From the NCBI RefSeq assembly GCF_016595675.1, contig NZ_JAENJH010000011.1, positions 62,001 through 126,000 on the forward strand: a DNA stretch of 64,000 nt. The letters are read 5' to 3'. The notes under the pieces were generated by a model. That model was not told the origin of the DNA. It saw only the letters and a program-made list of their open reading frames with translations, and searched no databases. The stretch is from Prauserella cavernicola (GTDB lineage Bacteria; Actinomycetota; Actinomycetes; Mycobacteriales; Pseudonocardiaceae). Within the stretch, counting starts at the first letter, position 1. Each line of letters opens with the position of its first letter. Of this stretch, positions 12,747-17,977 are shown in pieces. The translations under genes were made by a program, and so were the position numbers.

Positions 12747-13838
12747 TCAGCGCGACGGGACCGCGGCGGCGAGCTCGTCGAGCAGCCCCTCGGTCGTGGA
12801 CCAGTCGACGCACGCGTCGGTGATGCTCTGGCCGTAGGTCAGCTCGTCGGCCTCGCCCAGCGTGAGGTCCTGGCGCCCACCCTCGAGGAAGCTCTCCAGC
12901 ATCAGCCCGGCGATGCCGCGCTCGCCGGAGCCGATGCGCCCGGCCAGCTCGCTCACCACACCGGCCTGGCGGTGGTGGTCCTTGCCGCTGTTGCCGTGGC
13001 TGGCGTCGACGATGACCCGCTCGGGCAGTCCGGCCTTGGCCAGCCGGGACAGCGTGTCGGCCACGGTCGCGGCGTCGTAGTTGGGTCCGCCGCTGCTGCC
13101 GCGCAGGATCACGTGGCAGTCCGGGTTGCCCGCCGTCGTGAACAGCGCCGCGAGCCCGTCGGAGTTGATGCCGGGGAACACGTGGCTCGCCGCGGCGGCG
13201 CGCGTCGCGTCCACGGCCACCTGCACGTCACCCTCGGTGGAGTTCTTGATCCCCACCGGCATCGACAGTGCGCTGCACAGCTGCCGGTGCACCTGGCTGG
13301 CCGCCGTCCGCGCGCCGATCGAGCCCCAGCTGACGATGTCGGAGATGAACTGCGGCGTGATCGGGTCGAGGAACTCGCAGCCGACCGGAAGTCCCAGCGC
13401 GGAGACGTCGAGCAGCAGCTGCCTGGCCAGGCGCAGCCCCTTGTTGACGGCGAAGCTGCCGTCGAGGTCGGGGTCGTTGATCAGGCCCTTCCAGCCGAGC
13501 GTGGTCCTGGGCTTCTCGAAGTACACGCGCATCACGATGTGGAGCTGGTCGCGGACCTTGTCGGCGTGCTCGGCGAGCCTGCGCGCGTAGTCGAGCGCGG
13601 CCTCGGGGTCGTGCACCGAACACGGACCGGCGACGACGAGCAGCCGGTCGTCGCGGCCGTCGAGGATGTCGATCGTGTCGGCGCGGCCCTGCGCGACGGT
13701 CTTGGCGACCGCGGCGTCCAGGGGATGTTCCTCGCGGAGCAGGGCGGGGGACAGCAGCGGGCTGACGTGCGTGGTGCGCTGTTCGTCGAGCTGCGCGGCG
13801 GGATCGGTGACGTCCGCGGGAGCTGCGCTGGGTGACAT
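12747..13838 (-). CDS. aroG: 3-deoxy-7-phosphoheptulonate (DAHP) synthase, class I (AroF/G/H type)
   Basis: 363-residue enzyme that condenses phosphoenolpyruvate and erythrose 4-phosphate, the first step of the shikimate pathway. It is of the E. coli AroG class: the conserved runs DDRLLVVAGPCSVHDPEA, MRVYFEKPRTTLGWKGLI, CEFLDPITPQ, GSIGARTAASQVHR, HVILRGSSGGPNY and DASHGNSGKDHHRQ are all present, including the metal-ligand Cys in GPCS and the catalytic KPRTT/GARTAASQ elements. A start at 13836-13838 is supported by AAGGAAG about 8 nt upstream. A leader peptide and alternative hairpins precede it, suggesting attenuation by aromatic amino acids. Mycobacteria carry a class II enzyme at the equivalent position. 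Confidence 0.95.
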   Translation of the reverse strand: MSPSAAPADVTDPAAQLDEQRTTHVSPLLSPALLREEHPLDAAVAKTVAQGRADTIDILDGRDDRLLVVAGPCSVHDPEAALDYARRLAEHADKVRDQLHIVMRVYFEKPRTTLGWKGLINDPDLDGSFAVNKGLRLARQLLLDVSALGLPVGCEFLDPITPQFISDIVSWGSIGARTAASQVHRQLCSALSMPVGIKNSTEGDVQVAVDATRAAAASHVFPGINSDGLAALFTTAGNPDCHVILRGSSGGPNYDAATVADTLSRLAKAGLPERVIVDASHGNSGKDHHRQAGVVSELAGRIGSGERGIAGLMLESFLEGGRQDLTLGEADELTYGQSITDACVDWSTTEGLLDELAAAVPSR

Positions 13839-13856
13839 GGGGTGGCTTCCTTTCCG

Positions 13857-13947
13857 CAAGCCGCCCCGAGTTCGAGCCGGCTTGGCATCCGGCTCGAGGT
13901 GGAGGTGGTCAGCGCACGGTGTCGCCGACCGGCCCACCCGGGGCCGG
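13857..13947 (-). promoter_or_regulatory. Candidate attenuator with mutually exclusive hairpins upstream of DAHP synthase
   Basis: Three inverted repeats lie between the leader peptide's aromatic codons and the DAHP synthase start. In transcript order they are a 7-bp stem with a 5-nt loop (13941-13947 with 13929-13935), a perfect 9-bp stem with an 8-nt loop (13889-13897 with 13872-13880), and a 7-bp stem (13878-13884 with 13857-13863) that shares bases with the second, so the two cannot coexist. The first hairpin starts shortly after the Tyr-Phe-Trp-Phe codons, where a stalled ribosome would mask it. This is attenuator-like; the regulatory logic is inferred. Confidence 0.6.
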
Positions 13948-14013
13948 CCTGCTAAACCAGAAATAACGACGCCGCGCGAGGGGGCGGGCGTCCGCGCTGG
14001 TGAACTCGTTCAC
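13909..14013 (-). CDS. Probable aromatic leader peptide (34 aa) of the DAHP synthase gene
   Basis: A 35-codon frame starting at GTG 14011-14013 and ending 70 bp before the DAHP synthase start encodes a peptide with the run RRRYFWF at residues 14-20: Tyr, Phe, Trp and Phe in four successive codons. These are the three end products of the pathway the downstream enzyme starts, which is very unlikely to be chance. A TAGTGT hexamer (complement of 14021-14026) lies 7 nt before the GTG, so the mRNA is probably leaderless. A second in-frame GTG (14020-14022) would add three residues. Ribosome stalling at the aromatic codons would act on the hairpins that follow. Confidence 0.65.
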   Translation of the reverse strand: MNEFTSADARPLARRRYFWFSRPAPGGPVGDTVR

Positions 14014-14020
14014 GGCGGTC

Positions 14021-14026
14021 ACACTA
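14021..14026 (-). promoter_or_regulatory. Predicted -10 of the DAHP synthase leader transcript
   Basis: The minus-strand hexamer TAGTGT fits the actinobacterial -10 consensus TANNNT. It stands 7 nt before the GTG of the aromatic leader peptide, the same geometry as at several other leaderless starts in this window. No clear -35 is visible. Confidence 0.5.
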
Positions 14027-14198
14027 CAGCCGCCCGCGGCGAATGCGGACCCGGGCACAGAAATCCGAGGCCATCCTTGACAGTGCGGTCGTGACCGGGG
14101 AGCCGATCCACCTGCACCGATCAAGTGGAAAACCGCTAGGCTGGCGGCGCCAAGTGTGACGAAAAACAAACGCAAGACAAACGCGGAGGTTTGATCTG

Positions 14199-15224
14199 AT
14201 GCGAGTCGGTGTGCTGACCGGTGGCGGGGACTGCCCCGGGCTCAACGCCGTCATCCGTGCGGTCGTGCTGAAGGGCATCGACGCGCACGGCTGGGAGTTC
14301 GTCGGCTTCCGCAACGGGTGGCAGGGACCGCTCACCGGCGAGAGCAGGCCGCTGGGCCGCGACGACGTCGAGGGCATCCTCACCCGCGGTGGCACGATTC
14401 TGGGGTCCTCCCGGACCAACCCCTACAAGGACGGCGGCGGTTCGGAGCGCATCAAGGAGGTGCTCGCCGAACAGGGTGTCGACGCGCTGGTCGCGATCGG
14501 TGGCGAGGACACCCTCGGCGTGGCCAAGCGGCTCACCGACGACGGCGTGAACGTGGTCGGTGTGCCCAAGACCATCGACAACGACCTCGGTGCCACCGAC
14601 TACACCTTCGGTTTCGACACCGCGGTGCACATCGCCACCGAGGCGATCGACCGGCTGCACACCACGGCGGAGTCGCACCACCGTGCGCTCGTCGTCGAGG
14701 TGATGGGCCGCCACGCGGGCTGGATCGCGCTGCACTCCGGCCTCGCCGGTGGCGCGAGCGTGATCCTGGTGCCGGAGCGGCCGTTCTCCGTGGAGCAGGT
14801 CGTCCAGTGGGTCGAGCGCCGGTTCGAGCGCGAGTACGCCCCGATCATCGTGGTGGCCGAGGGCGCGCTGCCCGAGGGCGGCGCCGAACTGCTGCAGAGC
14901 GGCGAGAAGGACGCCTTCGGGCACGTCCGGCTCGGTGGTGTCGGCACGTGGCTCGCCGAGGAGATCGCGCAGCGCACGGGCAAGGAGTCGCGGGCCGTCG
15001 TGCTCGGGCACACCCAGCGCGGCGGGACGCCGACGGCCTACGACCGGGTGCTCGCCACGCGGTTCGGCCTGCACGCGGTGGACGCCGTCGCCGACGGCGA
15101 CTTCGGCGTGATGGTGGGGCTGCGCGGCACCGACATCGTGCGCGTCAAGCTCTCCGAGGCCACGGCCGAGCTCAAGACCGTGCCGCCGGAGCGCTACGCC
15201 GAGGCCGAGGTCTTCTTCGGCTGA
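14199..15224 (+). CDS. pfp: 6-phosphofructokinase, pyrophosphate-dependent type
   Basis: 341-residue enzyme interconverting fructose 6-phosphate and fructose 1,6-bisphosphate. The fold markers are all present: TGGGDCPGLN at 7-16, PKTIDND at 123-129 with catalytic Asp127, MGRHAGWIAL, and LGHTQRGGTP. Two residues decide the phosphoryl donor: Asp104 in GGEDT, where ATP enzymes have Gly104 (GGDGS), and Lys124, where ATP enzymes have Gly. This Asp104/Lys124 pair is the established signature of pyrophosphate-dependent enzymes such as that of Amycolatopsis methanolica, so the reaction is probably reversible and PPi-linked. ATG 14199 has a GGAGG site upstream, and TAGGCT occurs about 65 bp upstream (near 14138-14143) as a possible -10. 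Confidence 0.9.
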   Translation: MRVGVLTGGGDCPGLNAVIRAVVLKGIDAHGWEFVGFRNGWQGPLTGESRPLGRDDVEGILTRGGTILGSSRTNPYKDGGGSERIKEVLAEQGVDALVAIGGEDTLGVAKRLTDDGVNVVGVPKTIDNDLGATDYTFGFDTAVHIATEAIDRLHTTAESHHRALVVEVMGRHAGWIALHSGLAGGASVILVPERPFSVEQVVQWVERRFEREYAPIIVVAEGALPEGGAELLQSGEKDAFGHVRLGGVGTWLAEEIAQRTGKESRAVVLGHTQRGGTPTAYDRVLATRFGLHAVDAVADGDFGVMVGLRGTDIVRVKLSEATAELKTVPPERYAEAEVFFG

Positions 15225-16552: not shown

Positions 16553-17977
16553 GTGAGCCGACGAGCGAAGATCGTATGCACCCTCGGCCCTGCGACGGCG
16601 ACGGCGGAGAAGGTCCGTGCGCTCGTCGAGGCCGGTATGGATGTCGCACGCATGAACTTCAGCCATGGCAGCCATGGCGACCACAAGCAGGTCTACGACC
16701 TCATCCGGAACGCGGCGGCGGAGACCGGCCGCGCGGTCGGAATCCTGGCCGACCTGCAGGGCCCCAAGATCCGGCTCGGTACCTTCGCGGGCGGTCCCGT
16801 CGAGTGGCGTACCGGTGACCGGGTCCGCATCACCGTCGAGGACGTGCAGGGCACCCACGACCGCGTCTCGACGACGTACAAGGGGCTCGCCAAGGACGCC
16901 AAGCCGGGCGACCGCCTGCTGGTCGACGACGGCAAGGTCGGTCTCGTGGTCGAGGGCGTCGAAGGCCCCGACGTGCTGTGCGAGGTGACCGAGGGCGGTC
17001 CCGTCAGCAACAACAAGGGTGTCTCGCTGCCGGGCATGGACGTGTCGGTGCCCGCGATGTCCGACAAGGACGTCGAGGACCTCGAGTTCGCCATGGAGCT
17101 GGGTGTCGACTTCGTCGCGCTGTCCTTCGTGCGCTCGCCCGCCGACATCGACCTGGTGCACCAGGTGATGGACCGGGTCGGCAAGGGCAGGGCGCCCGTC
17201 ATCGCCAAGCTCGAGAAGCCCGAGGCCGTCTACAACCTCGAGGCGATCGTGCTGGCCTTCGACGGCGTGATGGTGGCGCGCGGTGACCTCGGCGTCGAGC
17301 TGCCGCTCGAGCAGGTTCCGCTGGTGCAGAAGCGGGCCATCCAGATCGCCCGCGAGAACGCCAAGCCGGTGATCGTCGCGACGCAGATGCTCGACTCGAT
17401 GATCAACAACTCGCGCCCGACGCGCGCGGAGGCCTCGGACGTGGCCAACGCCGTGCTCGACGGCGCCGACGCGGTGATGCTCTCCGGCGAGACCAGCGTG
17501 GGCCGCTACCCGATCGAGACGGTCGAGACGATGAGCCGCATCGTCGAGGCCGTCGAGGCCGACCTGCCGTCGGTGCCGCCGTTGAGCCACGTGCCGCGGA
17601 CCAAGCGGGGCGTGATCTCCTACGCCGCCCGCGACATCGGCGAGCGCCTCAACGCCAAGGCACTGGTCGCGTTCACGCAGTCCGGTGACACCGTGCGCAG
17701 GCTGGCGCGGCTGCACACCCGGTTGCCGCTGCTCGCGTTCACGCCGCTGGAGAGCGTGCGCAGCCAGCTGACGATGACGTGGGGCACCACGGCGCGGATC
17801 GTGCCGCACGCCGACTCGACGGACCGCATGATCCAGCAGGTCGACCACGCGATGCTCGAGACCGGCCGCTACCAGGCGGGCGACCTCGTGGTCATCGTCG
17901 CGGGCTCGCCCCCGGGCACCATCGGCTCGACCAACCTGATCCGGGTGCACCGGCTCGGTGAGGACGACCACGCCTGA
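16553..17977 (+). CDS. pyk: Pyruvate kinase
   Basis: 474-residue glycolytic enzyme transferring phosphate from phosphoenolpyruvate to ADP. The sequence starts RRAKIVCTLGPAT and contains ARMNFSHG, DLQGPKIR, the active-site MVARGDLGVE and the motif VATQMLDSM, followed by SDVANAVLDGADAVMLSGET. It ends in a complete C-terminal allosteric domain with FTQSGDTVR. GTG 16553 is used; TAGGCT at 16539-16544 is 8 nt upstream and no ribosome-binding site is seen, consistent with a leaderless mRNA. With the PPi-phosphofructokinase 1.3 kb upstream, it makes a small glycolytic neighbourhood, though with separate promoters. Confidence 0.96.
   Translation: MSRRAKIVCTLGPATATAEKVRALVEAGMDVARMNFSHGSHGDHKQVYDLIRNAAAETGRAVGILADLQGPKIRLGTFAGGPVEWRTGDRVRITVEDVQGTHDRVSTTYKGLAKDAKPGDRLLVDDGKVGLVVEGVEGPDVLCEVTEGGPVSNNKGVSLPGMDVSVPAMSDKDVEDLEFAMELGVDFVALSFVRSPADIDLVHQVMDRVGKGRAPVIAKLEKPEAVYNLEAIVLAFDGVMVARGDLGVELPLEQVPLVQKRAIQIARENAKPVIVATQMLDSMINNSRPTRAEASDVANAVLDGADAVMLSGETSVGRYPIETVETMSRIVEAVEADLPSVPPLSHVPRTKRGVISYAARDIGERLNAKALVAFTQSGDTVRRLARLHTRLPLLAFTPLESVRSQLTMTWGTTARIVPHADSTDRMIQQVDHAMLETGRYQAGDLVVIVAGSPPGTIGSTNLIRVHRLGEDDHA

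Follow-up and report, generated by a model that had tools for sequence, protein, structure and literature searches.

The 64,000-nucleotide stretch of DNA analysed here (the window) carries a short open reading frame with four consecutive aromatic codons ahead of a class I DAHP synthase (DAHPS) gene. Does translation of this frame control the gene, and through which RNA structures? We consider it probable (roughly 70%), judging by comparison with related loci, that the window holds a ribosome-mediated attenuator, which reads the supply of charged Tyr, Phe and Trp tRNAs and controls DAHP synthase. As far as sequence comparison can tell, the key helix of this putative attenuator is P2, a helix that replaces the 7-bp hairpin (P1) of the original prediction.

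The leader and its distribution

The whole system lies on the minus strand, where the leader ORF and the helices are followed by the DAHP synthase gene. Its parts are as follows.

14026-14021, minus strand: -10-like box TAGTGT, 7 nt ahead of the GTG
13909-14013, minus strand: leader ORF of 34 codons (GTG 14013-14011, TGA 13911-13909), with homologous leaders in relatives
13954-13965, minus strand: sensor codons UAU (13965-13963), UUC (13962-13960), UGG (13959-13957) and UUU (13956-13954), for Tyr, Phe, Trp and Phe
13929-13947, minus strand: P1, a 7-bp hairpin of CCGGCCC (13947-13941) and GGGCCGG (13935-13929); the sequence pairs, with no covariation above shuffles
13934-13947, minus strand: 5' strand of P2 (S1 plus loop), starting 9 nt past the first base of the last sensor codon
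13889-13902, minus strand: 3' strand of P2 (S3), behind the stop codon; P2 joins 13947-13934 with 13902-13889
13872-13897, minus strand: P3 hairpin of UCGAGCCGG (13897-13889) and CCGGCUCGA (13880-13872); excludes the S1 part of P2, and P4
13857-13884, minus strand: P4 stem of CAAGCCG (13884-13878) and CGGCUUG (13863-13857); excludes P3 and P5 (z -7.6, n=70)
13839-13867, minus strand: P5 stem of GGGGCGGCUU (13867-13858) and AAGCCACCCC (13848-13839); adjoins the DAHPS start codon (z -7.8, n=70)
12747-13838, minus strand: class I (alpha) DAHP synthase gene, ATG at 13838 (TIGR00034, E 6e-145; NF009395)

The predicted 34-codon frame with a Tyr-Phe-Trp-Phe run before DAHP synthase was thus confirmed, and its peptide reads VNEFTSADARPLARRRYFWFSRPAPGGPVGDTVR. 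It owes its full length to an in-frame extension at the N-terminus, the core having about 20 codons; among the leaders listed, only L004, from the same genus, has this extension too, and in most of the others the core peptide opens at a GTG or ATG directly ahead of the codons leading into the aromatic block. The two overlapping, mutually exclusive stems that had been proposed are also present, as P3 (13897-13872) and P4 (13884-13857) have positions 13880-13878 in common. P2 and P5, the latter enclosing the Shine-Dalgarno-like GGAAAGGAAG beside the DAHPS start codon, were absent from that proposal. Four consecutive aromatic codons occur three times in 127,972 codon windows (six frames, 64 kb), the leader being one occurrence; conservation in relatives is the stronger argument against chance.

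A 6-phosphofructokinase gene (14199-15224) diverges from the leader and a pyruvate kinase gene lies further on (16553-17977), so the neighbourhood handles phosphoenolpyruvate, a DAHPS substrate. No such leader was seen upstream of the class II DAHPS gene of the same genome, where the covariance-model match was at chance level (E 1).

Class I DAHPS loci were gathered by genome searches of the genus, family and order, and from named records (best 80 of 591). The family search contributed its best matches (about 70, down to about 58% identity) and the order search the loci that it returned; weaker DAHPS matches lie outside the sample, which is accordingly biased towards closer relatives. When 119 actinobacterial upstream regions were scanned by script, a leader turned up in 109, with 102 distinct peptide strings; two members of the leader set, L011 and L033, are the same contig. 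A full covariance-model search added three leaders (L043, L161, L163) and decayed remains in two loci (L120, L123), while four actinobacterial loci outside the 119-locus script (L058, L079, L086, L109) had no leader. The final tally for 123 actinobacterial class I DAHPS loci is 112 with a leader, two with a decayed one and nine without. Four of the nine (L146, L148, L150, L151) are more distant homologues of 58-59% identity, and the genomes of L150 and L151 also hold a DAHPS copy of about 80% identity that does have the leader. In the decayed leaders, both from one genus (g25), the block and the frame are lost and the S3 region and start-site stem are still recognisable. In L043, L216 and L229 the usual stop between block and S3 is absent, and the frame continues past S3 in the stretch examined.

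All three aromatic residues are found in the block of 108 of the 112 leaders (106 of the 109 scripted ones, plus L043 and L068, whose WYQRF was incompletely parsed by the script), counts that are not independent events, the leaders being related by descent. The exceptions are L045 (without Phe), L113 (without Tyr), and L161 and L163 (without Trp). Twenty more loci, chosen from a listing of 170 genomes, behaved alike: 19 had all three aromatics and one, L288, lacked Trp (L286 and L287 of this set were read by eye).

All of the 109 parsed leaders have a TANNNT box 5-9 nt ahead of an in-frame start; ATG, GTG, TTG and CTG were accepted as starts, up to 19 codons upstream. The distance is 7 nt in 87 leaders and 6 nt in 16. 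The same arrangement was met at 257 of 21,800 random positions in the same loci (1.2%) and in 49 of 2,180 shuffled upstream regions. The conserved box makes leaderless expression likely, which agrees with the earlier reading of TAGTGT, and the window's leader transcript is likely to be leaderless, starting at or near the GTG. Leaderless transcripts for leader peptides are reported in Streptomyces lividans in the available text of PMC8079986.

Helices, proposed switch and output

In P2, S3 behind the stop codon pairs with the RNA that follows the sensor codons, namely S1, the loop and part of S2. Such a duplex, 12-22 bp long with a median of 17, was found in 108 of the 109 leaders; the exception, L055, escaped the search pattern. 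Of the 104 distinct leaders 74 were aligned, and 78% of the P2 cells in this alignment were paired, versus 29-50% in slid registers, and nine of 15 pairs had double-sided changes. There were 64 double-change cells versus 21.1 +/- 3.2 after shuffling (0 of 500 shuffles), and the covariation score was 0.159 versus 0.074 +/- 0.006 in shuffles; since shuffles keep relatedness and P2 was derived from the same sequences, these scores are not a probability. RNAalifold predicted three pairs only on this alignment, all of them within P2, and because of this sparse output P2 was scored as a predefined structure, derived from the same sequences, which favours it. For P1 the score was 0.122 in both leaders and shuffles, and the proportions of paired cells were 79.6 and 78.5%.

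An alignment-free test, in which duplex energies of own and swapped partner strands were compared, covered 70 of 76 loci (L144 and five loci with unlocatable segments were left out). P2, P4 and P5 gave z values of -8.8, -7.6 and -7.8, and the nearly invariant upper part of P3 gave -5.7; P1 gave 0.1 and three control pairings +0.7, +1.8 and +0.8. Pairing of the lower P3 stem was weak (z -1.5, n=70), as was P5 in relatives L025-L027, L031 and L116, two of which were incompletely parsed by the script. Mutually exclusive covarying helices thus span the ORF and the downstream leader, while P1 itself is without support: the sequence of the hairpin first proposed does pair, but its covariation does not exceed that of shuffles, and P2 is the supported helix.

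These helices suggest the following course of events. Transcription would start at or near the GTG, as the conserved box 7 nt upstream implies, so the leader ORF would be translated first. When aromatic aminoacyl-tRNA is short, the ribosome would wait on UAU-UUC-UGG-UUU, just short of P2, and P2 could form, as predicted by folding of the unfinished transcript. P2 would take S3, which P3 needs; P4 could then form, P5 could not, and the gene would be on. When all three tRNAs are charged, the ribosome would reach the stop codon, melt P2 and cover the start of S3; P1 and P3 would form, P4 would be blocked, P5 would form, and the gene would be off. Relatives with a U-tailed hairpin directly after S3 would probably switch transcription termination instead.

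Unfinished transcripts were folded with the RNA ending after S3 and before S4, and with the ribosome front 8 nt from the first base of the A-site codon. In the window, 14.7 P2 pairs are expected with the ribosome on the first or the last sensor codon, 0.1 with it at the stop and 5.8 without a ribosome. Among 74 terminator-less loci, at least eight P2 pairs are expected in all 74 when the ribosome sits on the first or the last codon; the number of such loci is 50 when no ribosome is present and 30 when it has reached the stop. Equilibrium folds of the full leader (n=70, 12-nt front mask) were mostly negative for a switch at the ribosome-binding site, start-site accessibility being 0.46, 0.44 and 0.43 with the ribosome on the first codon, the last codon and the stop. 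In the same order, P2 was present at 0.53, 0.40 and 0.07 and P3 at 0.67, 0.91 and 0.85; in the window P3 stood at 0.99-1.0 at every ribosome position. The value of 0.91 means that a stall on the last codon fails to lower P3 under a 12-nt mask, and the last-codon result depends on the assumed footprint of the ribosome (8 versus 12 nt). RNA folding, proposed at the outset as a check, gave a divided answer, with P2 appearing in unfinished transcripts and no switch in equilibrium folds of the whole leader. The attenuator model presupposes kinetic control and the smaller ribosome footprint.

The same sensor could instead act in the window by premature termination, with P3 as a terminator that lacks a U-run, or through exposure of a Rho site, and with P5 secondary. 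We give this alternative a substantial minority share of the probability. Of 109 leaders, 36 scored positive for a U-tailed hairpin past the stop codon (L029 doubtful), including loci of Streptomyces, Mycobacterium, Micromonospora and Kribbella; P3 hardly varies and prevails in the equilibrium folds; and the Corynebacterium glutamicum leader AroR is reported, in the available text of PMC11802643, to act on transcription. Against termination in the window, a search of positions 13700-14200 found no U-tailed terminator-like site, and so no G+C-rich hairpin with a U-run before the structural gene, and P5 beside the start codon covaries in a set of loci most of which are without a U-tailed hairpin.

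The terminator-class leaders are not easily accommodated either. P2 ends -1 to +1 nt from the terminator stem in 34 of 34 measured leaders (the lower bound is set by the method), and the terminator does not overlap P2; without overlap, the model has no account of how P2 would block termination. When these leaders were folded up to the terminator's first arm and inspected by eye, no recurrent upstream partner of the arm was seen. P2 still folds with the ribosome at the stop in 33 of 34, in a fold that ignores the bulk of the ribosome, and this is a poor fit to the simple version of the model. The presence of a U-tailed hairpin in some leaders and its absence from the window point to two outputs of one sensor: apparently termination in some lineages, and perhaps access to the start site elsewhere.

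Position and choice of the sensor codons

The start of P2 lies 8 nt (40 loci) or 9 nt (56 loci) past the first base of the last sensor codon, i.e., at one of these two distances in 96 of 108 loci. The edge was measured with a restricted 3' strand; a wide 3' window was discarded because S1 also pairs with S4/S5. With the last sensor codon in the A site, the distance from the P-site codon's first base to the start of P2 would be 11-12 nt. The bacterial mRNA channel extends 11 nt from that base, and on E. coli ribosomes two stem-loops placed 11-12 nt away interfere with tRNA binding to the A site, according to the available text of PMC7282821. Taken together, the 8-9 nt spacing and the 11-nt channel mean that a ribosome waiting on any sensor codon would stop just short of P2.

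This geometry bears on the classical trp-type alternative, in which a stalled ribosome covers S1, breaks P1 and frees S2 to pair with S3. P1, P2 and P3 are mutually exclusive, much as in trp leaders, and under a 12-nt mask a stall on the last codon keeps the S2:S3 part of P2 (0.40) and removes P1 (0.10). But in 96 of 108 loci P2 starts outside the 11-nt channel (PMC7282821, available text), so that S1 need not be covered by the waiting ribosome, and P1 lacks covariation. In the window and in these 96 loci, the sensor codons lie outside segment 1, whereas a trp-type leader has them inside it. We regard masking as unlikely.

The sensor codons themselves are unusual. UUU accounts for 107 of 157 sensor Phe codons versus two of 607 Phe codons in DAHPS genes, and UAU for 96 of 119 sensor Tyr codons versus three of 502 Tyr codons in DAHPS genes. 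The aromatic run is conserved in aligned relatives, as had been anticipated, but the synonymous drift that was looked for there was not seen: rare codons are strongly preferred, and the block is largely fixed on UAU and UUU. At the sequence level, the leader is a translatable short ORF with consecutive codons for the end products of the pathway.

The covariance model gave a single match in each of 66 of 150 family genomes; 65 lie directly before class I DAHPS, as compared by eye with the DAHPS listing, and the 66th (G115) is at a contig end. No model match was obtained in 27 of the 93 family genomes with a class I match, two of which have decayed leaders and 25 a best match of at most 59% identity. 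In 246 genomes of the class there were 41 model matches; 28 of the 30 loci returned precede class I DAHPS, and two stand before chorismate mutase genes, one of them a fusion with a DAHPS-like domain. One class-level match (G396, L208) looks spurious, as no leader or aromatic gene was recognised there, and antisense matches in G376 and G449 were discounted because they overlap true ones.

One further family (f31), probably Streptosporangiaceae since its locus L229 matches L043 in the stretch examined, had model matches at E up to 0.05 in 74 of 150 genomes. At 77 of 78 places, the matches precede 18 chorismate mutase genes, 43 fusions of a DAHPS-like domain with chorismate mutase, ten class I alpha and four class I beta DAHPS genes, and two unassigned genes. 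The leader architecture before chorismate mutase or fusion genes was observed in L189, L205 and L211-L285. Fifty-eight parsed leaders precede such genes (three fusions were unparsed). Trp is in the five-residue block of none of the 58 and Tyr is in 38; L232 has one Trp two codons past the block. All 58 blocks end in Phe (the parser required some aromatic codon there), the last sensor codon is UUU in 56, and all 58 have the -10 box at a distance of 6-7 nt; 42 scored positive for a U-tailed hairpin. Spacing of P2 is looser here, at +8 in 30 of 58 and at +5 to +7 in 28. The commonest sensor words, YFAF, YFGF and YFTF, are YFWF with the Trp codon replaced. Within the same family, Trp is present in ten of ten leaders of class I alpha DAHPS, and leaders FWRFYGY or FWFWFGY, with Phe, Trp and Tyr, precede class I beta DAHPS in L257, L279, L282 and L283 (the family search behind the beta assignment was run on L257 only).

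In the fusions, none of five DAHPS motifs was found in the longest open stretch (0 of 43), versus three to four of four class I beta sequences per motif. Lacking these motifs, the fusions probably make no DAHP, and they look like pseudoenzymes joined to a mutase domain. The sensor codons thus match the product of the controlled gene in both DAHPS and chorismate mutase leaders. Trp is kept before DAHPS and absent before chorismate mutase, which serves only Phe and Tyr, so the sensor code follows the branch of the pathway; this correspondence may be one evolutionary event inherited many times. The proposal that three aromatic amino acids are sensed draws its support from this comparison and from the 108 of 112 three-aromatic leaders.

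The choice of codons also bears on the idea that the peptide product is the active element, either as an arrest peptide or as a small protein with a function of its own. A (M/V)QR-YFWF-xxPAxGG pattern does recur widely among the leaders. The residues past the block vary where RNA pairing is kept, leaders of chorismate mutase genes have no Trp in the block, and rare codons are enriched there, all of which make an active peptide very improbable. That the ORF is incidental to a structured RNA (a riboswitch or a protein site) is hardly credible: the helices covary, but conservation extends to the start, the box, the reading frame and the sensor codons, whose identity goes with the pathway branch, and the window has no Rfam match at E up to 1.

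Attenuation by a waiting ribosome remains our preferred reading. More tentatively, and a little short of probable in our estimate, the leaders may constitute a family of stand-off attenuators across Actinobacteria, in which P2 would be both switch and amplifier at rare UUU and UAU codons, the block would be an OR gate for three aminoacyl-tRNAs, and the sensor word would be rewritten for each gene. The amplifier role would extrapolate from stem-loop data on E. coli rather than actinobacterial ribosomes.

Outside Actinobacteria, 12 of 44 DAHPS loci had a short ORF with at least four aromatic residues in six codons, 100-230 nt upstream of class I DAHPS (L065, L067, L071, L073, L085, L094, L095, L096, L103, L110 and others); in Xanthomonas, Dyella and Bordetella it often resembles FYFWYYGFPMPLAEEG. 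These sequences suggest that Proteobacteria have an aromatic leader family of their own.

Relation to known attenuators

Classical trp, phe and his leader attenuators of enterobacteria (Rfam Trp_leader, RF00513, for trp) have their sensor codons in segment 1. The window resembles them in having sensor codons, mutually exclusive helices and a proposed coupling of translation to downstream expression. It differs in that its sensor codons precede segment 1, the proposed on-state helix starts just beyond the waiting ribosome, three amino acids would be sensed, there is no U-tailed terminator and no Rfam family matches. A search of the window with Trp_leader, His_leader, T-box and other families gave nothing, even when E values up to 1 were allowed for positions 13780-14120, and 20 loci picked from across the set had no match at gathering score, so that none of these 21 sequences matches an Rfam family.

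Closer to the window in phylogeny, mycobacterial polycysteine leaders are reportedly leaderless short ORFs with sensor codons (Canestrari 2020). The Streptomyces leaders leuL, trpL and ilvL are likewise leaderless short ORFs with sensor codons (PMC8079986, available text). Some members of these two groups are without a typical terminator. Both groups concern other amino acids and genes, and no Tyr, Phe and Trp leader before DAHPS is described in the available text. Seliverstov et al. (2005, PMC1262725) made a similar comparative prediction of leader-peptide attenuators in the same phylum, and the available part of that paper reports that no regulatory RNA structure is conserved among actinobacterial Phe or Tyr operons. 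A literature search of titles and abstract openings, covering few subscription papers, found no description of a Tyr/Phe/Trp leader before DAHPS.

The nearest precedent is an aroR-aroF attenuator of C. glutamicum, which is said to have been described by Neshat et al. in 2014. The AroR leader (Phe-Tyr-Phe) precedes aroF (PMC11802643 and PMC4046766, available text), so that, as in the window, a leader ORF with consecutive aromatic codons stands before class I DAHPS; the window differs in having Trp too, no U-tailed terminator, and a P3-P5 chain that ends at the ribosome-binding site. L288, from a small-genome genus of the same order (g250), has MSVQRFYFGGAPVG with an AroR-like Phe-Tyr-Phe; inspection by eye also showed a helix of the P2 type there, together with a U-tailed hairpin. 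Three of the 20 additional loci belong to a genus with genomes of 2.3-2.7 Mb: two read Trp-Arg-Phe-Tyr-Phe and one, with such a helix and hairpin, Arg-Phe-Tyr-Phe. L288, which stands in here for the AroR sequence, shares both Phe-Tyr-Phe and the P2 architecture, so AroR is very probably a family member and, from the same comparison, very probably a derived one that lost Trp. The claim that the window's leader is unlike single-amino-acid leaders stands as to its three aromatics, which are kept, but the leader has a precedent in AroR, very probably a relative. AroR is the only family member for which we found a reported response; induction occurs under Phe but not Tyr limitation, as described in one of PMC11802643 and PMC4046766 (available text). 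Since Tyr is without effect there, not every codon of a block need be effective.

Leader-peptide attenuation as such is known; the window would extend it to three amino acids, with a geometry that is unusual and sensor codons matched to the downstream gene. At DAHP synthase, carbon is committed to every aromatic amino acid and to numerous actinomycete antibiotics, which is why the gene concerned matters. One leader for three amino acids, together with a natural Trp-less series where the gene serves Phe and Tyr, is a ready test of sensor-codon choice. The 8-9 nt spacing and the rare codons make quantitative, testable predictions about a waiting ribosome acting with an RNA helix; in the stand-off reading, P2 would make rare-codon decoding sensitive to small shortages of aminoacyl-tRNA.
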